This document shows positions 13,658 through 62,321 of a stretch of 64,000 nt of DNA, in pieces (position 1 is the stretch's first letter; the number at the start of each line of letters is the position of its first letter). The position numbers were made by a program, and so were the translations under genes. This DNA comes from Henriciella sp. (GTDB taxonomy: Bacteria > Pseudomonadota > Alphaproteobacteria > Caulobacterales > Hyphomonadaceae). Where the stretch lies: contig NZ_JAPYPG010000003.1 in assembly GCF_029937755.1 (NCBI RefSeq), positions 248,001 to 312,000 of the forward strand, written 5' to 3'. Under the pieces are notes generated by a model. That model was not told where the DNA came from and made no database searches. It saw only the letters and a program-made list of their open reading frames with translations.

Positions 13658-15646
13658 ATGTACCGCAGACTTTTCCGAACACTTCTTGCATGCTCGCTCG
13701 CCCTTCCGGCGCTCGCCATTTCCCTGCCTACAGCAACCGCTCAGGAAACCACCGCATCTGACCCGGTGCCGCTGGAAGCCTGGGCGCTGCGCGAAGTCAT
13801 GCAGAATGTCGAGATCAATCCGAGCGGCGAGCATATCGCCTGGATGTCCAACCCGTCGCGTGAAGGCGATCCGATCATCCAGATCTACGAGACTGGAAAG
13901 TTCGACGAAAAGCCAACCAATGTCGGCGCCGACAATATGGAAATCATGGGCTTCTCCTGGGTGACCGACACAAAGATGATCGTCGCGTTCAGGCAGAAAA
14001 TCCGCAACAGGATCGAAGACTTCAATCAGGGGGTCTATGCCAACAAGCTCGCCATGTTCGATACAGAAACCAGCAGGTTTACCGAGCTTGGCGACAACTT
14101 CTCGATTGCGTCGCTGCTTCCGGATGAACCGAACACGATCATCATCGAGCAACCCAATTCGCGGTTCGGCCTGAATGTCGAGGATGACCCGTTCGCCGCT
14201 TTCCGGCCGCGCACCTACTACGAGCTCAACCTCGAGACCGGCAAGAAAAGCCTCGTTCTCAAGGGTAACAACCGCACAGCCTCCGCCATCTTCGATGATG
14301 ATGGCAATCCGCGCTTCTCGCAGGGCTATGATGCCGGCTCGAAGGAGTTCATCTTCTACGCCCGCAATCCTGATGAGAACAGCTGGCGCGAAGTGGTCCG
14401 CATGGACAGCTTCAGCCTCGAGAGTTCCAACTTCGGCGTTGCGGCATTCGATCCCAACAATGAGGACATCGCTTACGTCACCGCCAATAACGGCAACGAC
14501 AAGGTCGGTCTCTGGCAGTTCGATATCCGCGAGGGCGAATTCGGCGATGAGATCTACAGACGCGAAGATGTGGACGTCGCGGGCGTGCGCACAAGCTCCA
14601 ACTTCTGGCAAGAGGGCAACAAGCCGGTTGGCGTCACCTATTACGGCGCGAAGCTGGAAACGGCCTGGTTTGATGCAGAAGAAAAAGCGCTGTTCGATGG
14701 CCTGCAGAGCGCTGTTCCGAATGCTCACCAGATTTCCATCACCTCGCGCTCGCGCGATGGTGACACGATGGTGGTCTACAATGTCGGACCGAAGGATCCA
14801 GGTTCATATTATCTCCTGGAGAACGGCCAGCTCAGCTTTATCGGGACCAAGAACCCGCTGCTCAAGCCGGAGAATCTGAGCGAAATCCGCTATATCAAGT
14901 ATCCGACACGCGATGGAAGAGAAGTCGCAGGTTATCTCACCGTGCCCAACAAGGGTGAGGCCCCCTACCCGCTCATCGTGCTGCCGCATGGCGGTCCGTT
15001 CGTGGCGGAAATCGTGACCTATGACGAGTGGGCCCAATTCCTGGCAAACAATGGCTACGCCGTGCTGCAGCCGCAATACCGGGGATCGCTGGGCTATGGC
15101 CTCGACCACTGGAAGAGCGCCTATGGCCAGGGTGGCCTGAAGATGCAGGACGACAAGGATGACGGCGCGCTCTACCTCGTTGAGGAAGGTTTCGCCGACC
15201 CTGACCGGCTGGCCATGTTCGGCTGGTCCTATGGCGGTTACGCCGCTGCAGTCGCTGCATCGCGGGACCCGAACATCTATCAATGCACGATCGCCGGTGC
15301 CGCCGTTGTCGATGGCAACATGCAGCTGAACTACTATCGCGACAATCTTCTGCCAGCCTCGGAATATTGGGAGCTTCGTCGCCGGGAAGGTGTTCAGCCG
15401 CTGGATGAGGTCACGAAGGTCAACATTCCCCTCATGGTCATCCATGGCGATGTCGACCAGCGTGTGCCGTTCGAGCACTATGAGAAGTACACCAATGCGC
15501 TCGACAAGGCCGGTGTAGACTATGAGTCAGTGGTGCTGAAAGGCGCCGACCACTTCTACAATACCCTGTTCTACGACCACCAGCTGAAGCTCTACACTTC
15601 GATGCGGGACTTCCTGCAGAATGATTGCGGGCCGGGCGGCCTGTGA
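13658..15646 (+). CDS. S9 family peptidase (prolyl oligopeptidase/acylaminoacyl-peptidase type), secreted
   Basis: Signal peptide; GWSYGGYAA nucleophile motif, HGDVDQRVP, GADHFYN. Confidence 0.93.
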   Translation: MYRRLFRTLLACSLALPALAISLPTATAQETTASDPVPLEAWALREVMQNVEINPSGEHIAWMSNPSREGDPIIQIYETGKFDEKPTNVGADNMEIMGFSWVTDTKMIVAFRQKIRNRIEDFNQGVYANKLAMFDTETSRFTELGDNFSIASLLPDEPNTIIIEQPNSRFGLNVEDDPFAAFRPRTYYELNLETGKKSLVLKGNNRTASAIFDDDGNPRFSQGYDAGSKEFIFYARNPDENSWREVVRMDSFSLESSNFGVAAFDPNNEDIAYVTANNGNDKVGLWQFDIREGEFGDEIYRREDVDVAGVRTSSNFWQEGNKPVGVTYYGAKLETAWFDAEEKALFDGLQSAVPNAHQISITSRSRDGDTMVVYNVGPKDPGSYYLLENGQLSFIGTKNPLLKPENLSEIRYIKYPTRDGREVAGYLTVPNKGEAPYPLIVLPHGGPFVAEIVTYDEWAQFLANNGYAVLQPQYRGSLGYGLDHWKSAYGQGGLKMQDDKDDGALYLVEEGFADPDRLAMFGWSYGGYAAAVAASRDPNIYQCTIAGAAVVDGNMQLNYYRDNLLPASEYWELRRREGVQPLDEVTKVNIPLMVIHGDVDQRVPFEHYEKYTNALDKAGVDYESVVLKGADHFYNTLFYDHQLKLYTSMRDFLQNDCGPGGL

Positions 15647-15672
15647 TCTTCGAGCAAGAACGACAATTCCGG

Positions 15673-15703
15673 AAAGGCGGGCTTTCGGGCCCGCCTTTTC
15701 TTT
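15673..15703 (+). terminator. Rho-independent terminator after the S9 peptidase gene
   Basis: GGCGGGC...GCCCGCC stem followed by TTTTC. Confidence 0.85.
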
Positions 15704-15713
15704 ATGTGCGGCG

Positions 15714-16184
15714 CTAAAGGGAGTGCCCCTGCCGCGGGCTGCGGTCGCCGAACCACCAGAGGGTGGCCGCCGTTGCGGCGAAGGTGGCGGTTTCGGTGAT
15801 GGAGGTGCGCGCGCCTGCGTCCGCGCCGAGCCAGATGCCGCCCGCAATGCCCCAGAGGAGCAGCGTCAACACCGGCCGGGTCAGCCCGCGCACGGCATTG
15901 ACGAAGGGATAGCTCTCCCCGATCGCGGCCTCCGCTTCCATCGAGGCGCGCAGGCCCGCCCAGCTGCCGGCGGTCTCGGCCAGCGCCAGTTCGGCTTCTG
16001 TCTCTTCGGCACGCGCGGCCTGCTGCAGTTCGATCAGCCTTGTCTCATGCACCCAGCGCTCACGCTCATGGGCGTTCGTCTGGCGTCTTTCGATGAAGCC
16101 TGCCACGCGGCCAAGCGCCGTCCCGACCAGCCCGAATATCCCGCCACCCGCCGCGCTTGCGGCTAGTCCTGCTACCTCTTCCAT
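15714..16184 (-). CDS. Holin-like/phage-type membrane protein (putative)
   Basis: 156 aa; charged middle, two C-terminal hydrophobic segments, ends ...WWFGDRSPRQ, which resembles phage/GTA holin-like proteins; overlaps a peptidase gene. Confidence 0.5.
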   Translation of the reverse strand: MEEVAGLAASAAGGGIFGLVGTALGRVAGFIERRQTNAHERERWVHETRLIELQQAARAEETEAELALAETAGSWAGLRASMEAEAAIGESYPFVNAVRGLTRPVLTLLLWGIAGGIWLGADAGARTSITETATFAATAATLWWFGDRSPRQGHSL

Positions 16185-53795: not shown

Positions 53796-54668
53796 TCAAT
53801 CTTCAGCAGCCCACGCCTTCAGACCCGGATCCTTCGGATCCTCCAGAACAATTTCAAGACGGACATAGAGATGGCCCGGCTTGTCCTTGAACTGGACGCC
53901 CTTGTCGCGCAGGCGAAGCACCGTCCCTGTGTTCGATCCTTCCGGTACTTTCAGGGTGACTGCACCGGCGGGCGTCTCGACGTCCACACTGCCACCCGCG
54001 ACGGCCGTCTTGAGGGGCACCGGCACGGTCATGCGCAGATCGTCACCGTCGCGCGTCCAGGTCTTGCTGGGCCGCACAAAGACCTCCAGCAGGGCATCAC
54101 CCGGCGGGCCGCCAGTGGTCGAGGGCTGGCCCTGGCTTTTCAGGCGCAGCGTCTGGCCGGTTTCTATACCGGGCGGAATGGAAACATTCAGCGCCTTGCC
54201 ATCGCCCATGGTCATCTGGCGCTTGGCGCCCTGCACGGCATCTTCGAAGGAAATCTCGACCCGATAGCGCATGTCGGCGCCCTTGCGGGGCCCGGGCCGG
54301 CGGCGCTGCTGGCCGAACATTCCGGCGAGAATATCTTCAAACGGGTCGCCCTGGGCCTGTCCGCCAGCGCTCGCGAAGTCGCGGTAGGCGCCATAGTCGC
54401 GCCCCCCGCCGAAACCGCCCTGCGCACCCGCAAACCCGGTCGGATTGCCATCCGAATCGATTTCGCCGCGGTCGTATTTCTTCCGCTTTTCCTCGTCGCC
54501 AAGAATCTCGAAAGCGGCAGAGGCTTCCTTGAACTGGTCGGCCTTTGCCTTGTCATCCGGGTGCAGGTCCGGGTGCAGGGCTTTCGCCTTCTGCCGGTAG
54601 GCCTTGCGGATTTCGTCGTTGCTGGCCGTCTTGGATACGCCCAGAATATTGTACAGGTCGCGCGACAC
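53796..54668 (-). CDS. DnaJ C-terminal domain (CbpA-like) co-chaperone
   Basis: J-domain DLYNILGVSKTASNDEIRKAYRQKAKALHPDLHPDDKAKADQFKEASAAFEILGDEEKRKKYDRGE plus DnaJ_C domain. Confidence 0.94.
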   Translation of the reverse strand: MSRDLYNILGVSKTASNDEIRKAYRQKAKALHPDLHPDDKAKADQFKEASAAFEILGDEEKRKKYDRGEIDSDGNPTGFAGAQGGFGGGRDYGAYRDFASAGGQAQGDPFEDILAGMFGQQRRRPGPRKGADMRYRVEISFEDAVQGAKRQMTMGDGKALNVSIPPGIETGQTLRLKSQGQPSTTGGPPGDALLEVFVRPSKTWTRDGDDLRMTVPVPLKTAVAGGSVDVETPAGAVTLKVPEGSNTGTVLRLRDKGVQFKDKPGHLYVRLEIVLEDPKDPGLKAWAAED

Positions 54669-54713: not shown

Positions 54714-57700
54714 TTAGGATGCACCGAGCGGGATTGAAACCCGCTGACCGATGCGTCCATCAGTTCCTATTTCAGCAACCCTTACAGTTTCGTATCCGGC
54801 AGGAATGATCGCCTGCTCGCCAGTCACACTTTGCGAGCGCGCCACTTCCCCGCCTGCGAGCGCTTCGACCAGGTACTGGCGTTGGCGTACCGGGTCAGGC
54901 AGATCCCAGTTGTCAGGGATGTCGAGACCGCGAGGGAGCCAGGTGATGACCGGCCCACTTTCGCCCGGCGAAGCGCTCAGATGGGCGACACTCCAGCCAA
55001 GGCCTGCGACGTCTGTGTGACTGAAAGTCTGGGGATCACCCGGCCCGGCCTGCCAGATCAAAGGCAGGGCGACCTCCTGCGGCAGGAGGCCCGCCGAAAC
55101 CAGCCGCTCATCTGCAAGCAGGCAGATCGCGCCAGCATCTACAGTAATTACAGGTGAGCCATTCAGGCCGCGCAGCAGTCCGCCAAGCCGCCATTGATTC
55201 TCGGCTATCAGCTCAGCGGTTTCGAATCCAATCAGCTCCCAGCCTGTAGCGTTGCGCACGAGAAGCCGGTTAGCTCCCGCCAGAACATCTGCTGGTTCAG
55301 CACTCGAAAGGTCTTCGCCCGCGATCTCGAGAACAATGGCCCCCGCCCTGTCCCATCGGCCAAGCGGTCCTGCACTCAGCGGCGCCGCCAGCCTGCCAAA
55401 TCCCGCCGGTCCATTTACGGTTGCCCGGCGACGGGCCTGAGATACCGAGGTCCCTGCCCGGACATCGACAGGACCGGGCCAGGGTAACGCTGCGACCGCA
55501 GCAAGGGGGCCGGTCTGTTGACCGGGTCCGAACGGAGGACCATCGACAAGGACAAGTTTTGGCACAGCGGGTCGCGGCGCCACCGGCGCCTCGTCAGGCA
55601 AGGCGCTCGCCCGAAGACCCTGCCCCTCCATCGGGCGCACCGCGCTACAATGCCGGGTGAGGCCATCATCAATGATGTCGGTGACCTGCCAGGCGCTCGC
55701 AAGTCCATCCATCTCAACCCGGTCACCCGGCTCGAGATGCAGGTATTCCGGCGGCAAGACGAACCCCGCCGCATCCGGCTGCAGCGCAGACTCAAGCAGG
55801 CGCGCAGCAAGATCGCTGGCCTCGGCATCAGACAGAACCAGCGGCAGCGCGGCTTCAATCGTCTGCGTAGGGTCGCCCAGATCGGACCGGGCATCCACCG
55901 CAGCAGGCGCATAGGTCCCGTCGGCGCTAATGAAGCTCAACTGCAACCGTCCGGGGCGCTTGTCGAGCAGGTTATACGTGAGCGACAGGCCGGATTCCGC
56001 CAGCCGGGCCGCATTGACCTGAACCGTGTCCACCGAAGCCTGATCGGTGCAAATGAGGCCGCCTTCACGCTCGACGCACGATAGGCCATGGGCGGCCCGC
56101 AACGGCTCCAGCGCGCGGCGGAGCGGCATCGGACCGGTGAGGGCAATCCCTTCCAGCCAGCCCGACAGGCGGCTTCCATCAAGATCGATCCCCGCGCGGG
56201 CGCCAAAATCGCTGACAGCCTCGCCAACCTCGATCAGCCCGGTGCGGCCGTTCAGCCAGTGACCGTAGGACCAGTTCGGCCCATCGCTCCAGACGCTTTC
56301 ACGCACCGGAAAGTCCGGCCAGGGCCGGGCATCCCAGGCCCAGATGAAGGTCTTCTCCACGCAAGGCTGGGCTTGCCAGTAAGCTAGCGCCGCCTCAAGC
56401 GCGCGGCGCTGGAGGACGTCATCACGTTCACCGGACGAGTATGGCGGCAAGGCGCTCTCTGAACTCTTTGGATCGTAGAAAAGGTTTGGCGCATTGCCGC
56501 CCTTGTCGACGGCCGGGAAGCCGATTTCGATCAGCCGCACGGGTTTCATACCGGGCACCCAGTCCGTCGGGGTCGCCTCACGGGCGCCGCCCGGCCGCTC
56601 ATGATGGGCTGCATTCCACCAACCCGCGAGATCCTTCTGGCGGAAAACCCAATGTTCGCCATGGGCAGTGTCGGTGATCGGCGTGCGGATCTGGGAATCC
56701 CGGTGGGCTTGGCTGGCATAGTACCAGTCATAGGCTTCTCCGCCGGCCATCTGGTCTGCCAGATAGGCGGGATCATCGGCCGCGGTGTAACCGGCGAGCC
56801 GGTCGAGATGGGTGTCACCATCCCGCCAGTCCCCAGCCGGCGGATACCAGTCCACGCCGACAAAATCGATGTCAGCCGAGGCCCAAAGCACGTCTAGCGG
56901 GAACAGGATATCGTTAGAACCATCGTCCGGAGTATAAGCTCCGTACTCGGTCCAGTCGGCCGCATAGGAAACCTTCACGCCCGGCCCGACAATTGCCTTT
57001 ACATCGGCGGCAAGCTGCACCAGCCCTTCGACGAAGGGGAAGGCACCTGTCTCGTCACGCAAGCGCGTCAGCCCGCGCATCTCGCTGCCAATCAGGATCG
57101 CCTCAACACCGCCGGCCCCTGCGACCAACCTGGCATGGTGCAGGATGAAATGCCGGTAGCCAAAATCATGATCGGTGCCGAGAAAGGCGTCGATCTCGGT
57201 TCTGACGGCGGCCGTCCCATCCTCGCTCGCCACGATCCGTCCCCGCCAGGGGAAGGCCGCCTGCTCATCGCCGCCATAAGGGTCAGGCAGGCCGTTGTCG
57301 GACGGCACGTCCATGAGCAGGAAGGGTGAGAGCGTCACAGCCATCCCCTCCGCCTGCATCGCGGCAATACCTTCCTTCACCGCAACATCGGTTGGCGTAC
57401 CGCCATAATTGGCGCTGCCGCCGGACTGGCTGACAAGATAGGCGCTCGTCCTGATCTCGCCTGCCACGCCCCATTGATAGGGAGCCGTCGAGCGGTTTCG
57501 CGTCTCTACACCGGGGCGGATGCGGCAATGGCCAGCGCGCACGTCATCGCCGAACCAGCCAACGGTCAGCGTGGCAGAATTCGTGCCCGGCAGGTCTGAG
57601 GTCAGCTGGTCTAGCGAAGACCGGAAGTCTGCTTCACCGGACGCATTGTTCATGTTGAGCGGCTTTTCTGTCCCCGGAAAGAACCGTTCACGGACGATGC

Positions 57701-58808
57701 GTGTCCCGTAGACGAACTCTCCCGAAGCAGGGATCACATTCACCCCTTCCGCCAGCTTGCGCAGGCCGGTTTCATCCGAACCTGCCCGCACGACTTCGAA
57801 GCTCAGTTGCGGCAACCGGTTTCCGAATGCGTCCAGCGGCAGGTCTTCGAAGACGATATAGGCCGTGCCGCGATAGGCCGGGGTCTGCCCGGCCCCCTCA
57901 ATGGCCTCGATTAACGGGTCCGGCAGCTGGGCATCGGCGAGGACGTACCCGGATACGAGCCCTCCGGCGTCCCGGCGCGTTCCAGCCGCAACGATCCCGC
58001 AGGCATCGGCGGCCGCCCCCACACCCGCTGGCGGGTCAACGGCCACGACGATTTCAGTCAACGGCCCGGGATGATGGGTCAGGCTCACCAGGTCGATCAA
58101 TGCACGCGTCCAGAGCGCACCGCTCTCCTCGTCGAGAAGTTCACCGGCCAGTTCCTGTCGGCCGAGATCGGAGTTTCCGTACAGCCGCTCGACATGATCA
58201 AGAAAGACGGGAGAAAGGTTCTCTGCATTGTCGCGCGTGGCCGATCGCGTCACTGCAACGGTCGCCCCCTCCACCAGAGCGCGGACGAGCGGCACACGGC
58301 GCGGCGTTGTCGTTGCGATGATACGCGGGTTTGGCCCCAGCCGCAGGGTCATCTGCAGCATGTCCCAGACCGCCCGGCCGTTTTGCCATGCAGCGACTTC
58401 GTCACACCAGGCGGCATCGAATTGCGGGCCCCGCAGGCCGTCCGGATCCTCGGCGGAAAAGGCATGGGCTTCTGCCCCATTCGGCCAGACAAGACGGTGG
58501 CGGGACACCTCATACTCCGGCGCCCGCTCACCCGCTCGCATGATCGAGCGCAAGCCAGAGAAGCCCTCAATCATCACTTCGCGCACATCATTGAAGGTTG
58601 GTCCGACAAGCGCGATCCGGCGATAACCGCCGAAAAGCACCAGACGCCTTACCCATTCTGCACCGGCGCGGGTCTTGCCGGAGCCGCGCCCGCCCATGAA
58701 CAACCAGGTATGCCAGGCCCCGGTCGGATCACATTGAGGCGCGCGGGCCGTAAAAAGGAAACTCTTCTGGCAAGGCACTTGTGGGTCGGGCACGCAAGGG
58801 TCGGACAT
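54714..58808 (-). CDS. In-frame fusion: GTA/phage large terminase N-terminal ATPase (58808..~57930) joined to GTA gp15-like TIM-barrel tail protein (~57929..54714)
   Basis: N terminus: FMGGRGSGKTRAGAEWVRRL Walker A, FDAAWCDEVAAW, IIATTTPRRVPLV. From QLPDPLIEAIEG: PAYRGTAYIVFEDLPLDAFGNRLPQLSFEV, GVDWYPPAGDWRDG, ITDTAHGEHWVFRQKDLAGWWNAAHHERPGG, typical of GTA TIM-barrel/phage-tail domains. Confidence 0.88.
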   Translation of the reverse strand: MSDPCVPDPQVPCQKSFLFTARAPQCDPTGAWHTWLFMGGRGSGKTRAGAEWVRRLVLFGGYRRIALVGPTFNDVREVMIEGFSGLRSIMRAGERAPEYEVSRHRLVWPNGAEAHAFSAEDPDGLRGPQFDAAWCDEVAAWQNGRAVWDMLQMTLRLGPNPRIIATTTPRRVPLVRALVEGATVAVTRSATRDNAENLSPVFLDHVERLYGNSDLGRQELAGELLDEESGALWTRALIDLVSLTHHPGPLTEIVVAVDPPAGVGAAADACGIVAAGTRRDAGGLVSGYVLADAQLPDPLIEAIEGAGQTPAYRGTAYIVFEDLPLDAFGNRLPQLSFEVVRAGSDETGLRKLAEGVNVIPASGEFVYGTRIVRERFFPGTEKPLNMNNASGEADFRSSLDQLTSDLPGTNSATLTVGWFGDDVRAGHCRIRPGVETRNRSTAPYQWGVAGEIRTSAYLVSQSGGSANYGGTPTDVAVKEGIAAMQAEGMAVTLSPFLLMDVPSDNGLPDPYGGDEQAAFPWRGRIVASEDGTAAVRTEIDAFLGTDHDFGYRHFILHHARLVAGAGGVEAILIGSEMRGLTRLRDETGAFPFVEGLVQLAADVKAIVGPGVKVSYAADWTEYGAYTPDDGSNDILFPLDVLWASADIDFVGVDWYPPAGDWRDGDTHLDRLAGYTAADDPAYLADQMAGGEAYDWYYASQAHRDSQIRTPITDTAHGEHWVFRQKDLAGWWNAAHHERPGGAREATPTDWVPGMKPVRLIEIGFPAVDKGGNAPNLFYDPKSSESALPPYSSGERDDVLQRRALEAALAYWQAQPCVEKTFIWAWDARPWPDFPVRESVWSDGPNWSYGHWLNGRTGLIEVGEAVSDFGARAGIDLDGSRLSGWLEGIALTGPMPLRRALEPLRAAHGLSCVEREGGLICTDQASVDTVQVNAARLAESGLSLTYNLLDKRPGRLQLSFISADGTYAPAAVDARSDLGDPTQTIEAALPLVLSDAEASDLAARLLESALQPDAAGFVLPPEYLHLEPGDRVEMDGLASAWQVTDIIDDGLTRHCSAVRPMEGQGLRASALPDEAPVAPRPAVPKLVLVDGPPFGPGQQTGPLAAVAALPWPGPVDVRAGTSVSQARRRATVNGPAGFGRLAAPLSAGPLGRWDRAGAIVLEIAGEDLSSAEPADVLAGANRLLVRNATGWELIGFETAELIAENQWRLGGLLRGLNGSPVITVDAGAICLLADERLVSAGLLPQEVALPLIWQAGPGDPQTFSHTDVAGLGWSVAHLSASPGESGPVITWLPRGLDIPDNWDLPDPVRQRQYLVEALAGGEVARSQSVTGEQAIIPAGYETVRVAEIGTDGRIGQRVSIPLGAS

Positions 58809-58902
58809 CGAAACCCTATAGCTGGCGGGCCGTCCCGGTCGGACAGATTGCGTGCCGGCCCGCCCCCGCTATCATGGGTGGGTCAAATGGAAGGATCGCG
58901 AC

Positions 58903-59052
58903 ATGTTTCTTTTCCTGCTCTGGTGGTGCGTGGATGACCATCTCGCCGCGGCCCTTGAAGCGCCGGGCCTCGGCACACTGCCAATCTGGGTGCCGCTTAT
59001 CCTGTCACTAGCCTTCAGCTTCACGCTTCAGGGTGCCGTCAAACGGAAGTGA
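58903..59052 (+). CDS. Small membrane protein (49 aa), hypothetical
   Basis: MFLFLLWWCVDDHLAAALEAPGLGTLPIWVPLILSLAFSFTLQGAVKRK; one clear TM helix. Confidence 0.45.
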   Translation: MFLFLLWWCVDDHLAAALEAPGLGTLPIWVPLILSLAFSFTLQGAVKRK

Positions 59053-59137
59053 GGCGCATTCCCCGCTCGCGTGCAATCAACCAGCTTTCCCGGGCTGATT
59101 GCTGGCGCACCGCCACGTTCCAGCGCAGAGTCCCGCA

Positions 59138-59815
59138 ATGGCAGACCCGCCCCCACGATCACGCGCGCGGCGCGCCCGGCCCGCACCCGCGCGCAACCTG
59201 ATGTCACCTCTCTGGCGGCAAGTCTGCAGGCTGATCCTGGCAACAGGCGGCTGGAGGGTTCGCGGCGACTGGCCGGACGCCCCGCGCGCCGTCATGGTGG
59301 CGGCGCCGCACACATCGAACTGGGATGGCTTCTGGATGCTGGCCGCGGCCGGCTACTATCAGGTAAAGCTCAGATGGATGGGCAAGAAAGCGCTTGTCGA
59401 TCATCCGCTCGGCGCGCTCGTACGCTGGCTGGGCTGTGTACCGATTGACCGGGACTCCGCAAACGATGTGGTCGAACAGATGGGCGCGGCCTTCGCCTCG
59501 TCCGACCGCCTTGTCCTTGGCGTTGCTCCGGAAGGGACGCGCTCACATGCGGTCGAGTGGAAGAGCGGTTTCTACCGGATCGCCCACCAGGGTGGCGTGC
59601 CGCTCATCCTGTCTGTCCTCGACTATGGCCAGCGGACGATCCGGATCGATGGCCTGTTCCGGCCGACCGGCGACTACGAGGCCGACCTGCCGTTGATCCA
59701 GGCGGGCTATGCCGACGCCCGGGGCCGCCACAAGGGCCGCTTTGCCGTGGGCGAAAAGGCAACTGGCCCGTCAGCCGGAAAGGTACCGCCTGAAGACGAA
59801 AGCCGAGACCGCTGA
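59138..59815 (+). CDS. Lysophospholipid acyltransferase family (PlsC-like) protein
   Basis: VAAPHTSNWDGFWML (HxxxxD variant), VAPEGTRSH; probable start ATG 59138. Confidence 0.88.
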   Translation: MADPPPRSRARRARPAPARNLMSPLWRQVCRLILATGGWRVRGDWPDAPRAVMVAAPHTSNWDGFWMLAAAGYYQVKLRWMGKKALVDHPLGALVRWLGCVPIDRDSANDVVEQMGAAFASSDRLVLGVAPEGTRSHAVEWKSGFYRIAHQGGVPLILSVLDYGQRTIRIDGLFRPTGDYEADLPLIQAGYADARGRHKGRFAVGEKATGPSAGKVPPEDESRDR

Positions 59816-60097
59816 CCCGGCGATCAGGACCAGCACGCCCAGCGGATCCACGAACTCGGCATGCCGGAACCAGGCTGCCGGCACCAGATAGGCCAGCAGC
59901 GGCAATGCCCAGACAGCCGGCTCCTTGGGCAGGAGATAGGCCACGCAGAAGATCGCGGCGCCCGATATGGGCAGCCAGTAGCGCACAAAGCCCAGCACAT
60001 CGCTTTCGGCGGGCAGCCACATGAACTTAAGGCTCACGAGAACCGAATACCCGATCAGGAAAACTGACAGCCAGACAATGCGCAGGATTGGCGTCAT
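59771..60097 (-). CDS. Small integral membrane protein
   Basis: 108-aa hydrophobic ORF; 4-nt overlap with the upstream oxidoreductase gene. Confidence 0.7.
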   Translation of the reverse strand: MTPILRIVWLSVFLIGYSVLVSLKFMWLPAESDVLGFVRYWLPISGAAIFCVAYLLPKEPAVWALPLLAYLVPAAWFRHAEFVDPLGVLVLIAGSAVSAFVFRRYLSG

Positions 60098-61113
60098 TCA
60101 GGCTCCGATACCTTCACCACAAGCTTGCCGAGATTTTTGCCCGTAAACAGCCGCTCCAGCGAAGCTGGCGCATTCTCCAGCCCTTCGACCACATCTGTCT
60201 CGAAACGGATCTTGCCTTCCATGAGCCATTGCCCCATGGCCTGCATGCCTTCCGGGAAGCGGTCGATATAGTCGGTCACGATATAGCCCTTGAGCGTGAC
60301 ATGCCGCATCAGCAGCATCGAGAAGTTGTATGGCCCGGGGACCGGCTCGGTCGCATTGTAGGATGAAATCAGGCCGCATAGCGGCATGCGGGCAAAATCG
60401 TTCAGTTTTGTGAGGATCGTATCCATGATCTCGCCGCCGACATTCTCGAAGTTGATGTCGATGCCATCCGGGCAATGCCGGTCCAGCGCCGCGCCGACAT
60501 CTTCCTTCTTGTAATTAATCGCTGCATCGAACCCGGCGGTTTCGGTCAGCCAATTGCATTTCTCATCCGACCCGGCGATCCCGACGACGCGGCAGCCCTG
60601 GATCTTGGCGATCTGGCCAACCATGGATCCGACCGCCCCGGCAGCGGCGGAGACCACCATCGTCTCGCCCGGCTTTGGCTTGCCGATATCCATCAGGCCG
60701 AAATAGGCGGTCATGCCGGTCATGCCGAGCGGCCCCATGAACGCCGTCAGCGGCACGCCGGGCAATTGCGGAAGCTTGTTCACCTCCTCGCCCTTCTTGA
60801 CCAGATAGAGCGCCCACTGGCCAAGCCCGGTGTTCACGATGTCACCGCGCTCCAGGCCGTCGAACCGGCTGTCCTCGACGATGGCGATGCCACCGCCGCG
60901 CATCGGCTCACCAATCTGGACCGGCGGCATGTACTGGTCACGATCCGACATCCAGATCCGGTTTGTCGGGTCAAGCGAAAGAAAGAGCGTCCGGATCAGC
61001 ACTTCGCCCTCTTCCAGGGCCCGTACCGGTTCCTCGACGAGTTCGAGATCGCCCTCGCTGACATCGCCCACCGGACGGTTGCGAAGTTTCCAGACCTTGT
61101 TTGTCTTTTCCAT
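60094..61113 (-). CDS. NADP-dependent MDR-family oxidoreductase (PTGR-like)
   Basis: Start refined to 61113; MVVSAAAGAVGSMVGQIAKIQGCRVVGIAGSDEKC; NFENVGGEIMDTIL. Confidence 0.93.
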   Translation of the reverse strand: MEKTNKVWKLRNRPVGDVSEGDLELVEEPVRALEEGEVLIRTLFLSLDPTNRIWMSDRDQYMPPVQIGEPMRGGGIAIVEDSRFDGLERGDIVNTGLGQWALYLVKKGEEVNKLPQLPGVPLTAFMGPLGMTGMTAYFGLMDIGKPKPGETMVVSAAAGAVGSMVGQIAKIQGCRVVGIAGSDEKCNWLTETAGFDAAINYKKEDVGAALDRHCPDGIDINFENVGGEIMDTILTKLNDFARMPLCGLISSYNATEPVPGPYNFSMLLMRHVTLKGYIVTDYIDRFPEGMQAMGQWLMEGKIRFETDVVEGLENAPASLERLFTGKNLGKLVVKVSEPE

Positions 61114-61400
61114 GTTGCTGTCCTCCCTGACGGCTATCGCAGCCACCTTAGGGAAGGCGGGCGGGTGTGGCGAGCCATGACGCCGGGTTCGCTGGTCATG
61201 CCGCCGGTGCAGGCGTTGGTATATTGGGGAAATGTAATGAAACCGGAAGGAACAAACGCCGCGCCCACACACTGTTAGGGGGACATGTCCAAGAACGGAT
61301 ATGTTTCCAATCCCAGGAACCAGCAGAATGCCGGCTTCCCGGGAACCTCCTCCCCATCCCCGATTGGACGGGGCGCCAACCCTTCCGGGTGGCGTCCCGT

Positions 61401-62321
61401 CTAATTTTGTCGGCCTGTCACTGCCTCGATGGGAATATCGTAGTGGCGCGCGCAAAACTGGCAGTCGACCTTCAGCGTCCCATCAGGCTCGACCATGTCA
61501 TGCAGCGACTCGTCAGCCATGCCGGAGAGGGTCTTCCGGAGCCGATCTTCACTGCAGGTGCACCGGTCGATCAGAAGCTGTGGCGCTTCCATGCGCACGC
61601 CGCCCTCATGGAAGAGACGGTAGAGAAGGTCGGGCGCTGCGATCTCCTCGGAAATCAGTTCTTCCGGCGTCAGCGTATTGAACAGGGCCTGAGCCTCCAG
61701 CCAGCCATCTTCCGTGTCACCGCGCGCATCGTCACCGGCAATCTTCTGCACCATCATGCCGCCGCCATGCCATTCCCCGGCCTGATCGCGTTTCACGGAC
61801 ATGGCAAGGCAGGTCTCGATCTGCTCGGACTGATGGAAGTAATCCTCGGCGCACTCCTGCAGCGAGCCTTTCGCCAGCGGGACGATCCCCTGATAAGGCT
61901 GCATACCAGGCTTGTCGTGTACAATGATGAGCCCGAGACGCCCCATCGGACCGAAGAGCTGCGGCATGTGGGGTTTCAGGCCCTTGTTGACCTTTTCCAG
62001 ATAGGCCCAGCGCTCCTGCTCGAAGCGGGAATAGGCCCGCACGCTGCCATCCTTGTGATACTCGCCAACCAGCATGGAAACCGGACCGTCGCCTTCGGCC
62101 TGCGTCATGACGCGGCCCTCGAACTTCATGCCCGACCCGACAAGTGTGGCGAGGAGCAGCGCCTCACCAAGGATCTCGCCGAGGTGATCGGGATAGGCGT
62201 GGCGCTGGAGAATCGGTGAGAGGGTCTTGCTTCCCATGCGCACGACCCGCCCGGCCACCGGCAGCGTTTCGGAGGAGAAGCTGGCAACATAATCTTCTGG
62301 ATGCGAGGAGAGGGCACTCAA
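61401..62321 (-). CDS. hslO: Hsp33 family redox-regulated chaperone
   Basis: C-terminal CTCSEDRLRKTL...DCQFCARHYDI zinc/redox motif (CxC...CxxC). Confidence 0.95.
   Translation of the reverse strand: MSALSSHPEDYVASFSSETLPVAGRVVRMGSKTLSPILQRHAYPDHLGEILGEALLLATLVGSGMKFEGRVMTQAEGDGPVSMLVGEYHKDGSVRAYSRFEQERWAYLEKVNKGLKPHMPQLFGPMGRLGLIIVHDKPGMQPYQGIVPLAKGSLQECAEDYFHQSEQIETCLAMSVKRDQAGEWHGGGMMVQKIAGDDARGDTEDGWLEAQALFNTLTPEELISEEIAAPDLLYRLFHEGGVRMEAPQLLIDRCTCSEDRLRKTLSGMADESLHDMVEPDGTLKVDCQFCARHYDIPIEAVTGRQN

Follow-up and report, generated by a model that had tools for sequence, protein, structure and literature searches.

An open reading frame of 1364 codons in Henriciella sp. begins as the large terminase, a DNA-packaging motor, of a virus-derived gene transfer agent (GTA) cluster and ends as the GTA tail protein gp15. 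The question that this locus raises is whether such a chimera is a new protein, an assembly error or what is left of a cluster that has lost its middle. It was addressed in a window of 64,000 nucleotides, the whole stretch of DNA that was analysed, and by comparison with related genomes. It is highly probable that an RcGTA-like head-tail cluster recently lost about 8 kb from its interior and that the chimera is what this deletion left behind, a non-functional relic.

Two gene parts in one reading frame

The frame is uninterrupted from its ATG start, with no internal stops in its translation (Table 1). That a single frame passes from terminase to gp15, as an earlier note on this DNA had claimed, was confirmed by the ORF and by Pfam, NCBIfam and PHROGs, and the domain searches suggested for the two halves returned terminase in residues 1-293 and gp15 in residues 294-1364. 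In Pfam, Terminase_6N covers residues 36-237 (7e-33), followed by GTA_TIM at residues 549-834 (6e-127) and Rcc01698_C at residues 1137-1223. The NCBIfam equivalog GTA_megatron aligns positions 153-1269 of its 1299 model positions to chimera residues 292-1342 with 1134 bits, the cut-off being 800 bits, and PHROGs places terminase at residues 36-282 and a tail protein at residues 291-1257. Two solved megatron structures match the gp15 half, 6tba of RcGTA (6e-184) and 8gtc. The Walker A motif, described earlier as intact, reads GGRGSGKT in the translation.

Neither protein is complete. In the relative G009, whose terminase has 425 aa, the terminase part aligns to residues 15-292 (70.5%), and similarity ends at about chimera residue 293, corresponding to G009 residue 292; what is present is the ATPase domain and the start of the nuclease, and comparison with G009 indicates that the remaining nuclease is gone. 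The gp15 part aligns to residues 149-1225 of the 1225-residue G009 gp15 (67.4%), and its similarity to the megatron model begins only at position 153, which leaves out the iris/penetration N-terminus. The iris domain of RcGTA comprises residues 1-46, and the domain limits of the RcGTA structure imply that the deletion took the iris/penetration domain and a large part of the adhesin-like domain, whereas the peripheral, central and fibre-binding domains of gp15 are kept in the chimera (PMC7296036). We infer only that the product may interact with the cell envelope, the N-terminal iris/penetration domain of gp15 being gone. An AlphaFold2 model of residues 1-545, built on 13 alignment rows, had a mean pLDDT of 40.6 and is meaningless.

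Table 1. Features of the chimeric locus and its neighbours (positions in the window)
Feature	Position	Strand	Basis
Chimeric ORF: GTA terminase N-terminal part and GTA gp15 minus its first ~150 residues, in frame	54714..58808	-	
Terminase (g2) part, residues 1-293	57930..58808	-	Pfam Terminase_6N; alignment to G009 terminase
Walker A motif GGRGSGKT, residues 39-46	58671..58694	-	translation
Deletion junction A293/Q294	57929..57930	-	comparison with G009 and G010
gp15 (megatron) part, residues 294-1364	54714..57929	-	NCBIfam GTA_megatron; alignment to G009 gp15
GTA TIM-barrel-like domain, residues 549-834	56307..57164	-	Pfam PF13547
Phage-tail_3 domain, residues 892-1045	55674..56135	-	Pfam PF13550
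Rcc01698-like C-terminal domain, residues 1137-1223	55140..55400	-	Pfam PF23666
DnaJ-like downstream neighbour	53796..54668	-	synteny, directly downstream of gp15 in intact relatives; name by inspection
Putative GTA-cluster promoter region with block GCAATCTGTCCGACC	58809..58902	-	six-genome alignment; promoter function putative
Upstream neighbours common to intact relatives	59771..62321	-	synteny; names by sequence inspection
Small membrane protein, upstream neighbour	59771-60097	-	synteny
ADH-like oxidoreductase, upstream neighbour	~60094-61113	-	synteny
Hsp33-like protein, upstream neighbour	61401-62321	-	synteny

The intact cluster of relatives and the missing middle

At this locus, flanked by the same genes, the closest relatives carry an intact RcGTA-like cluster of about 12 kb. 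Among 60 relatives searched, most of those that belong to the same genus group have the two halves of the chimera as separate genes about 10 kb apart. The whole cluster with the flanks seen in the window, Hsp33-like and ADH-like genes on one side and a DnaJ-like gene on the other, was found in G019, G009, G021, G025, G012, G002 and G018; in G010, the cluster has the same upstream flank and the contig ends within gp15. In an alignment of six genomes, the block GCAATCTGTCCGACC is mostly conserved in the intact relatives. The clusters of three relatives (G022, G011 and G008; loci L011, L020 and L022) contain a near full-length gp15 with one or two in-frame stops; these genes may be at an early stage of pseudogenization although their clusters otherwise look intact, or the stops may be sequencing errors.

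Several observations concern the upstream edge of the cluster. Divergent from the putative GTA promoter, a predicted small membrane protein of 49-51 aa (MFLFLLWWCVDDHLAAALEAPGLGTLPIWVPLILSLAFSFTLQGAVKRK) is encoded at 58903-59052 (+) of the window; it also occurs at L034, L035, L036, L037, L038, L048, L049, L054, L058, L060 and L061, and is nearly identical across all close relatives, its conservation being far above that of its neighbours. A motif scan found none in more distant or collapsed loci. An acyltransferase-like gene, named by eye, also adjoins the putative promoter (59099-59815, +), and its place is taken in G009 and G010 by a 148-aa membrane protein, pointing to gene turnover at this edge.

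Comparison with G009 and G010 defines the breakpoints at 57930/57929, the very spot at which the earlier note had placed the switch, with the junction codons GCC and CAG. The deletion measures 7812 nt relative to G009 and 8067 nt relative to G010. It extends from the terminase nuclease, just past the first acidic motif, to gp15 residues 1 to about 150, and the 12 complete genes that separate the two halves in G009 (among those named, portal, protease, capsid, g6 and g8-g14) agree with the "about a dozen" estimated earlier. At most a few nucleotides of microhomology, with little or none visible, can be read at the junction from these relatives. Judged from these alignments, one deletion of about 7.8-8.1 kb, taking the 12 whole genes and both partial ends, would explain the chimera. 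The proposal of a single in-frame deletion in an RcGTA-type cluster thus finds support in the intact syntenic clusters of the closest relatives and in the genome-wide absence of representative missing genes.

This absence was established with a query of 1251 aa from five deleted proteins (portal, capsid, g9, g12 and g14), which gave no match anywhere in the window's genome, whereas the same query found all five segments in G019, G010, G021 and G033. Because these representatives of the deleted genes are absent from the assembly and the query is positive in four intact relatives, a rearrangement is ruled out and a misassembly is improbable. The genome is a draft of 36 contigs, and an assembler could have collapsed an intact cluster into the observed junction; this possibility, also raised in the earlier note, is nevertheless very unlikely, given that the missing genes lie on no other contig, completeness of the genome is scored at 100%, the junction sits far into its contig (at about 305.9 kb), and no repeat is apparent that would link terminase to gp15. 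Furthermore, the same type of collapse arises independently in relatives, including the single-contig assemblies G028 and G091.

Other GTA loci, which the earlier note had recommended looking for, did not turn up in this genome. Two candidates, on contigs C19 (L044) and C14 (L045), were rejected as ordinary prophage regions by their look and are apparently unrelated to the cluster: tblastn with the G009 cluster proteins returned only a terminase match of about 47% in L044 and nothing in L045. A 743-aa head-like protein of the L044 prophage (13848-16079, +) has a seeming intein-like insertion, judged by eye, that starts CFPSGQPVSIHD and ends near WYIAGTAGVGNCGC. DUF6456, which we take to be part of the GTA regulator, was rejected as a sign of leftover GTA machinery; it is also absent from the intact relatives and is therefore uninformative.

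Age of the event and the question of selection

The conservation of both halves equals that of their counterparts in intact clusters. Changes at columns that are otherwise invariant, defined among 12 other genomes of the core set, number 2 of 105 in the terminase half and 7 of 295 in the gp15 half, which is in the middle of the range of intact genes, and the branch lengths are ordinary. When the chimera is compared pairwise with G019, G009 and G010, dN/dS is 0.15-0.19, as compared to 0.16-0.26 among these three; the outcome of this check, proposed in the earlier note, fits recency and selection alike. Pairwise dS between the chimera and its nearest relatives comes to about 1.2-1.6, near saturation. 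When neutral substitutions were simulated on the actual sequence, each 0.01 substitutions/site produced 1.2 stops and, at widely invariant sites, 5 changes; the chimera has no stops and 2 such changes, so that an unconstrained chimera would be younger than about 0.013-0.025 substitutions/site. The event is therefore recent unless the fusion is selected, and the bound alone does not separate the two. Relaxation is not visible in either half, and selection would give the same picture; recency is the simpler reading, though not the only one. Among the three options offered in the earlier note (recent, selected or artefactual), recency is on the strength of this bound the best supported.

Collapsed clusters elsewhere provide a measure of how often such joins fall in frame. 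In 12 other loci of the family and order, the middle was lost at differing points and a 5' gene was joined to the gp15 tail. Of the 13 joins read at the nucleotide level, counting that of the window (G000), 5 are in frame: G000 (g2::g15), G091, G073 and G086 (portal::g15), and G055 (capsid::g15). Out of frame are G007 (g2::g15 with other breakpoints), G003, G028, G066, G076 and G083, as well as G094 and G075, with gaps between the matched pieces. Tested against a chance of 1/3, the in-frame count gives P = 0.37 for 5/12 and 0.21 for 5/10. Since 5 of 13 is close to one third, the in-frame state needs no selection; the earlier suggestion that the chimera is selected for is to this extent dispensable, while from one genome it may still hold.

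Two further open frames, 1697 in G091 and 1497 in G083, were rejected as terminase::gp15 fusions once their DNA was read: in the former, the terminase ORF ends normally and gp15 lies in a separate portal::gp15 ORF, and in the latter, the join is between g12 and gp15 and does not keep the frame. Collapse at differing breakpoints was recorded at L040, L041, L042, L047, L100-L104, L108, L109, L111 and L114. Two genomes of genus g5 carry a ParA-like ATPase gene, recognized by its N-terminal motif, within the GTA remnant downstream of terminase and in the opposite orientation to the GTA genes (L100:8946-9905, -; L101:7734-8618, +).

An exapted, selected protein, combining ATPase and GTA tail domains in a new host role (for instance, to block GTA receptors or, in a "cheater" that produces no GTA of its own, to interfere with GTA), would account for 1364 open codons with an intact Walker A, for two unrelaxed halves and for the conserved putative promoter region. 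It is nonetheless improbable in the extreme, as independent collapses yield in-frame joins no more often than expected by chance, dN/dS and conserved sites resemble the two parent proteins with no new constraint regime, and recency accounts for the open frame. In addition, outside the window's genome no match spanning terminase and gp15 was present among the matches listed for 105 family members or for 398 order members, so that the same junction, which the earlier note had proposed to seek in related genomes, did not recur there; a junction 30-mer had no matches in IMG/VR. There is likewise very little probability that the chimera is expressed from the surviving putative GTA promoter and kept by selection as a host protein, such as a tail fragment that shields a non-producer by blocking receptors or acting as a dominant negative, the terminase ATPase serving as a new N-terminal module.

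A relic of a recent deletion is thus preferred. Such a deletion would have taken the approximately 8 kb between terminase and gp15 with little or no visible microhomology and would have abolished GTA production, leaving no portal, capsid or tail genes. The in-frame join would be a 1-in-3 accident, and the frame would still be open because the event is young. If made, the protein would consist of an ATPase domain without a complete nuclease and a tail protein without its pore-forming N-terminus, with no particle to serve; it is most likely non-functional and would be expected to decay. It is rather unlikely, though less so than the alternatives above, that the real deletion is a polymorphism or a culture or laboratory event of the sequenced isolate, atypical of its species. 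The neutral-age bound is compatible with zero and one genome of the species was compared; nothing speaks directly against this special case of the preferred explanation.

Retained ends and the loss of GTA clusters

The gp15 end lies 45 nt from the DnaJ-like gene in the window and similarly close in intact relatives, and the 3' end of gp15 is retained in most collapsed loci. The DnaJ promoter may lie inside this 3' end, in which case DnaJ would probably need it for transcription. The ends would then survive because the flanking genes are important to the cell, and deletions that remove the gp15 3' end would be weeded out, as would those reaching the upstream neighbours. With both flanks under such constraint, internal deletions would leave behind pieces of the genes at the start of the cluster and of its last gene. 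Collapsed loci nearly always keep the gp15 3' end beside DnaJ, stop-free in most cases; this end could be a marker of the dnaJ promoter or a tail fragment with retained function.

The two halves are orthologous to the g2 terminase, the first large gene, and the g15 megatron, the last, of the RcGTA-type cluster (Rhodobacter capsulatus g1-g15; CcGTA of Caulobacter), at a conserved locus that intact clusters occupy in relatives. In contrast to this cluster type, all genes between g2 and g15 are missing, with portal, capsid, g9, g12 and g14 absent from the genome, and the terminase lacks most of its nuclease and gp15 its iris/penetration and much of its adhesin-like domain. What remains is a partial cluster at its ancestral locus with the intervening genes lost, as in a GTA relic. 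RcGTA-like clusters have been reported in 78% of Caulobacterales OTUs (PMC6821227), and a published criterion for completeness is 14 of 17 genes (PMC10883770). Pseudogenization and loss of GTAs are known from several alphaproteobacterial lineages, which have been discussed as possible cheater lineages (PMC10883770). The present locus resembles these in that GTA production would be lost by cluster decay in a particular lineage, and differs in that one internal deletion fuses both end genes in frame with the product open. The portal::gp15 and capsid::gp15 relics are closer parallels, as independent internal deletions that join a 5' GTA gene in frame with the gp15 tail, but have other 5' partners and breakpoints and shorter frames of 399-530 codons (some counted stop to stop). 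A terminase::gp15 fusion was not found described in the open-access literature searched, in agreement with the earlier note.

The locus is probably a snapshot of a known process and not a new machine. Knowledge of GTA loss comes mainly from presence or absence and from pseudogenes, whereas the chimera locus and its relatives represent an early step of loss with readable breakpoints, in which single internal deletions spare both ends. The chimera itself is probably inert, and the series of collapses has greater value than this single chimera: arisen independently in one family and order, these collapses form a set in which the manner, the rate and the constraints of the loss of a domesticated virus-like element may be measured.
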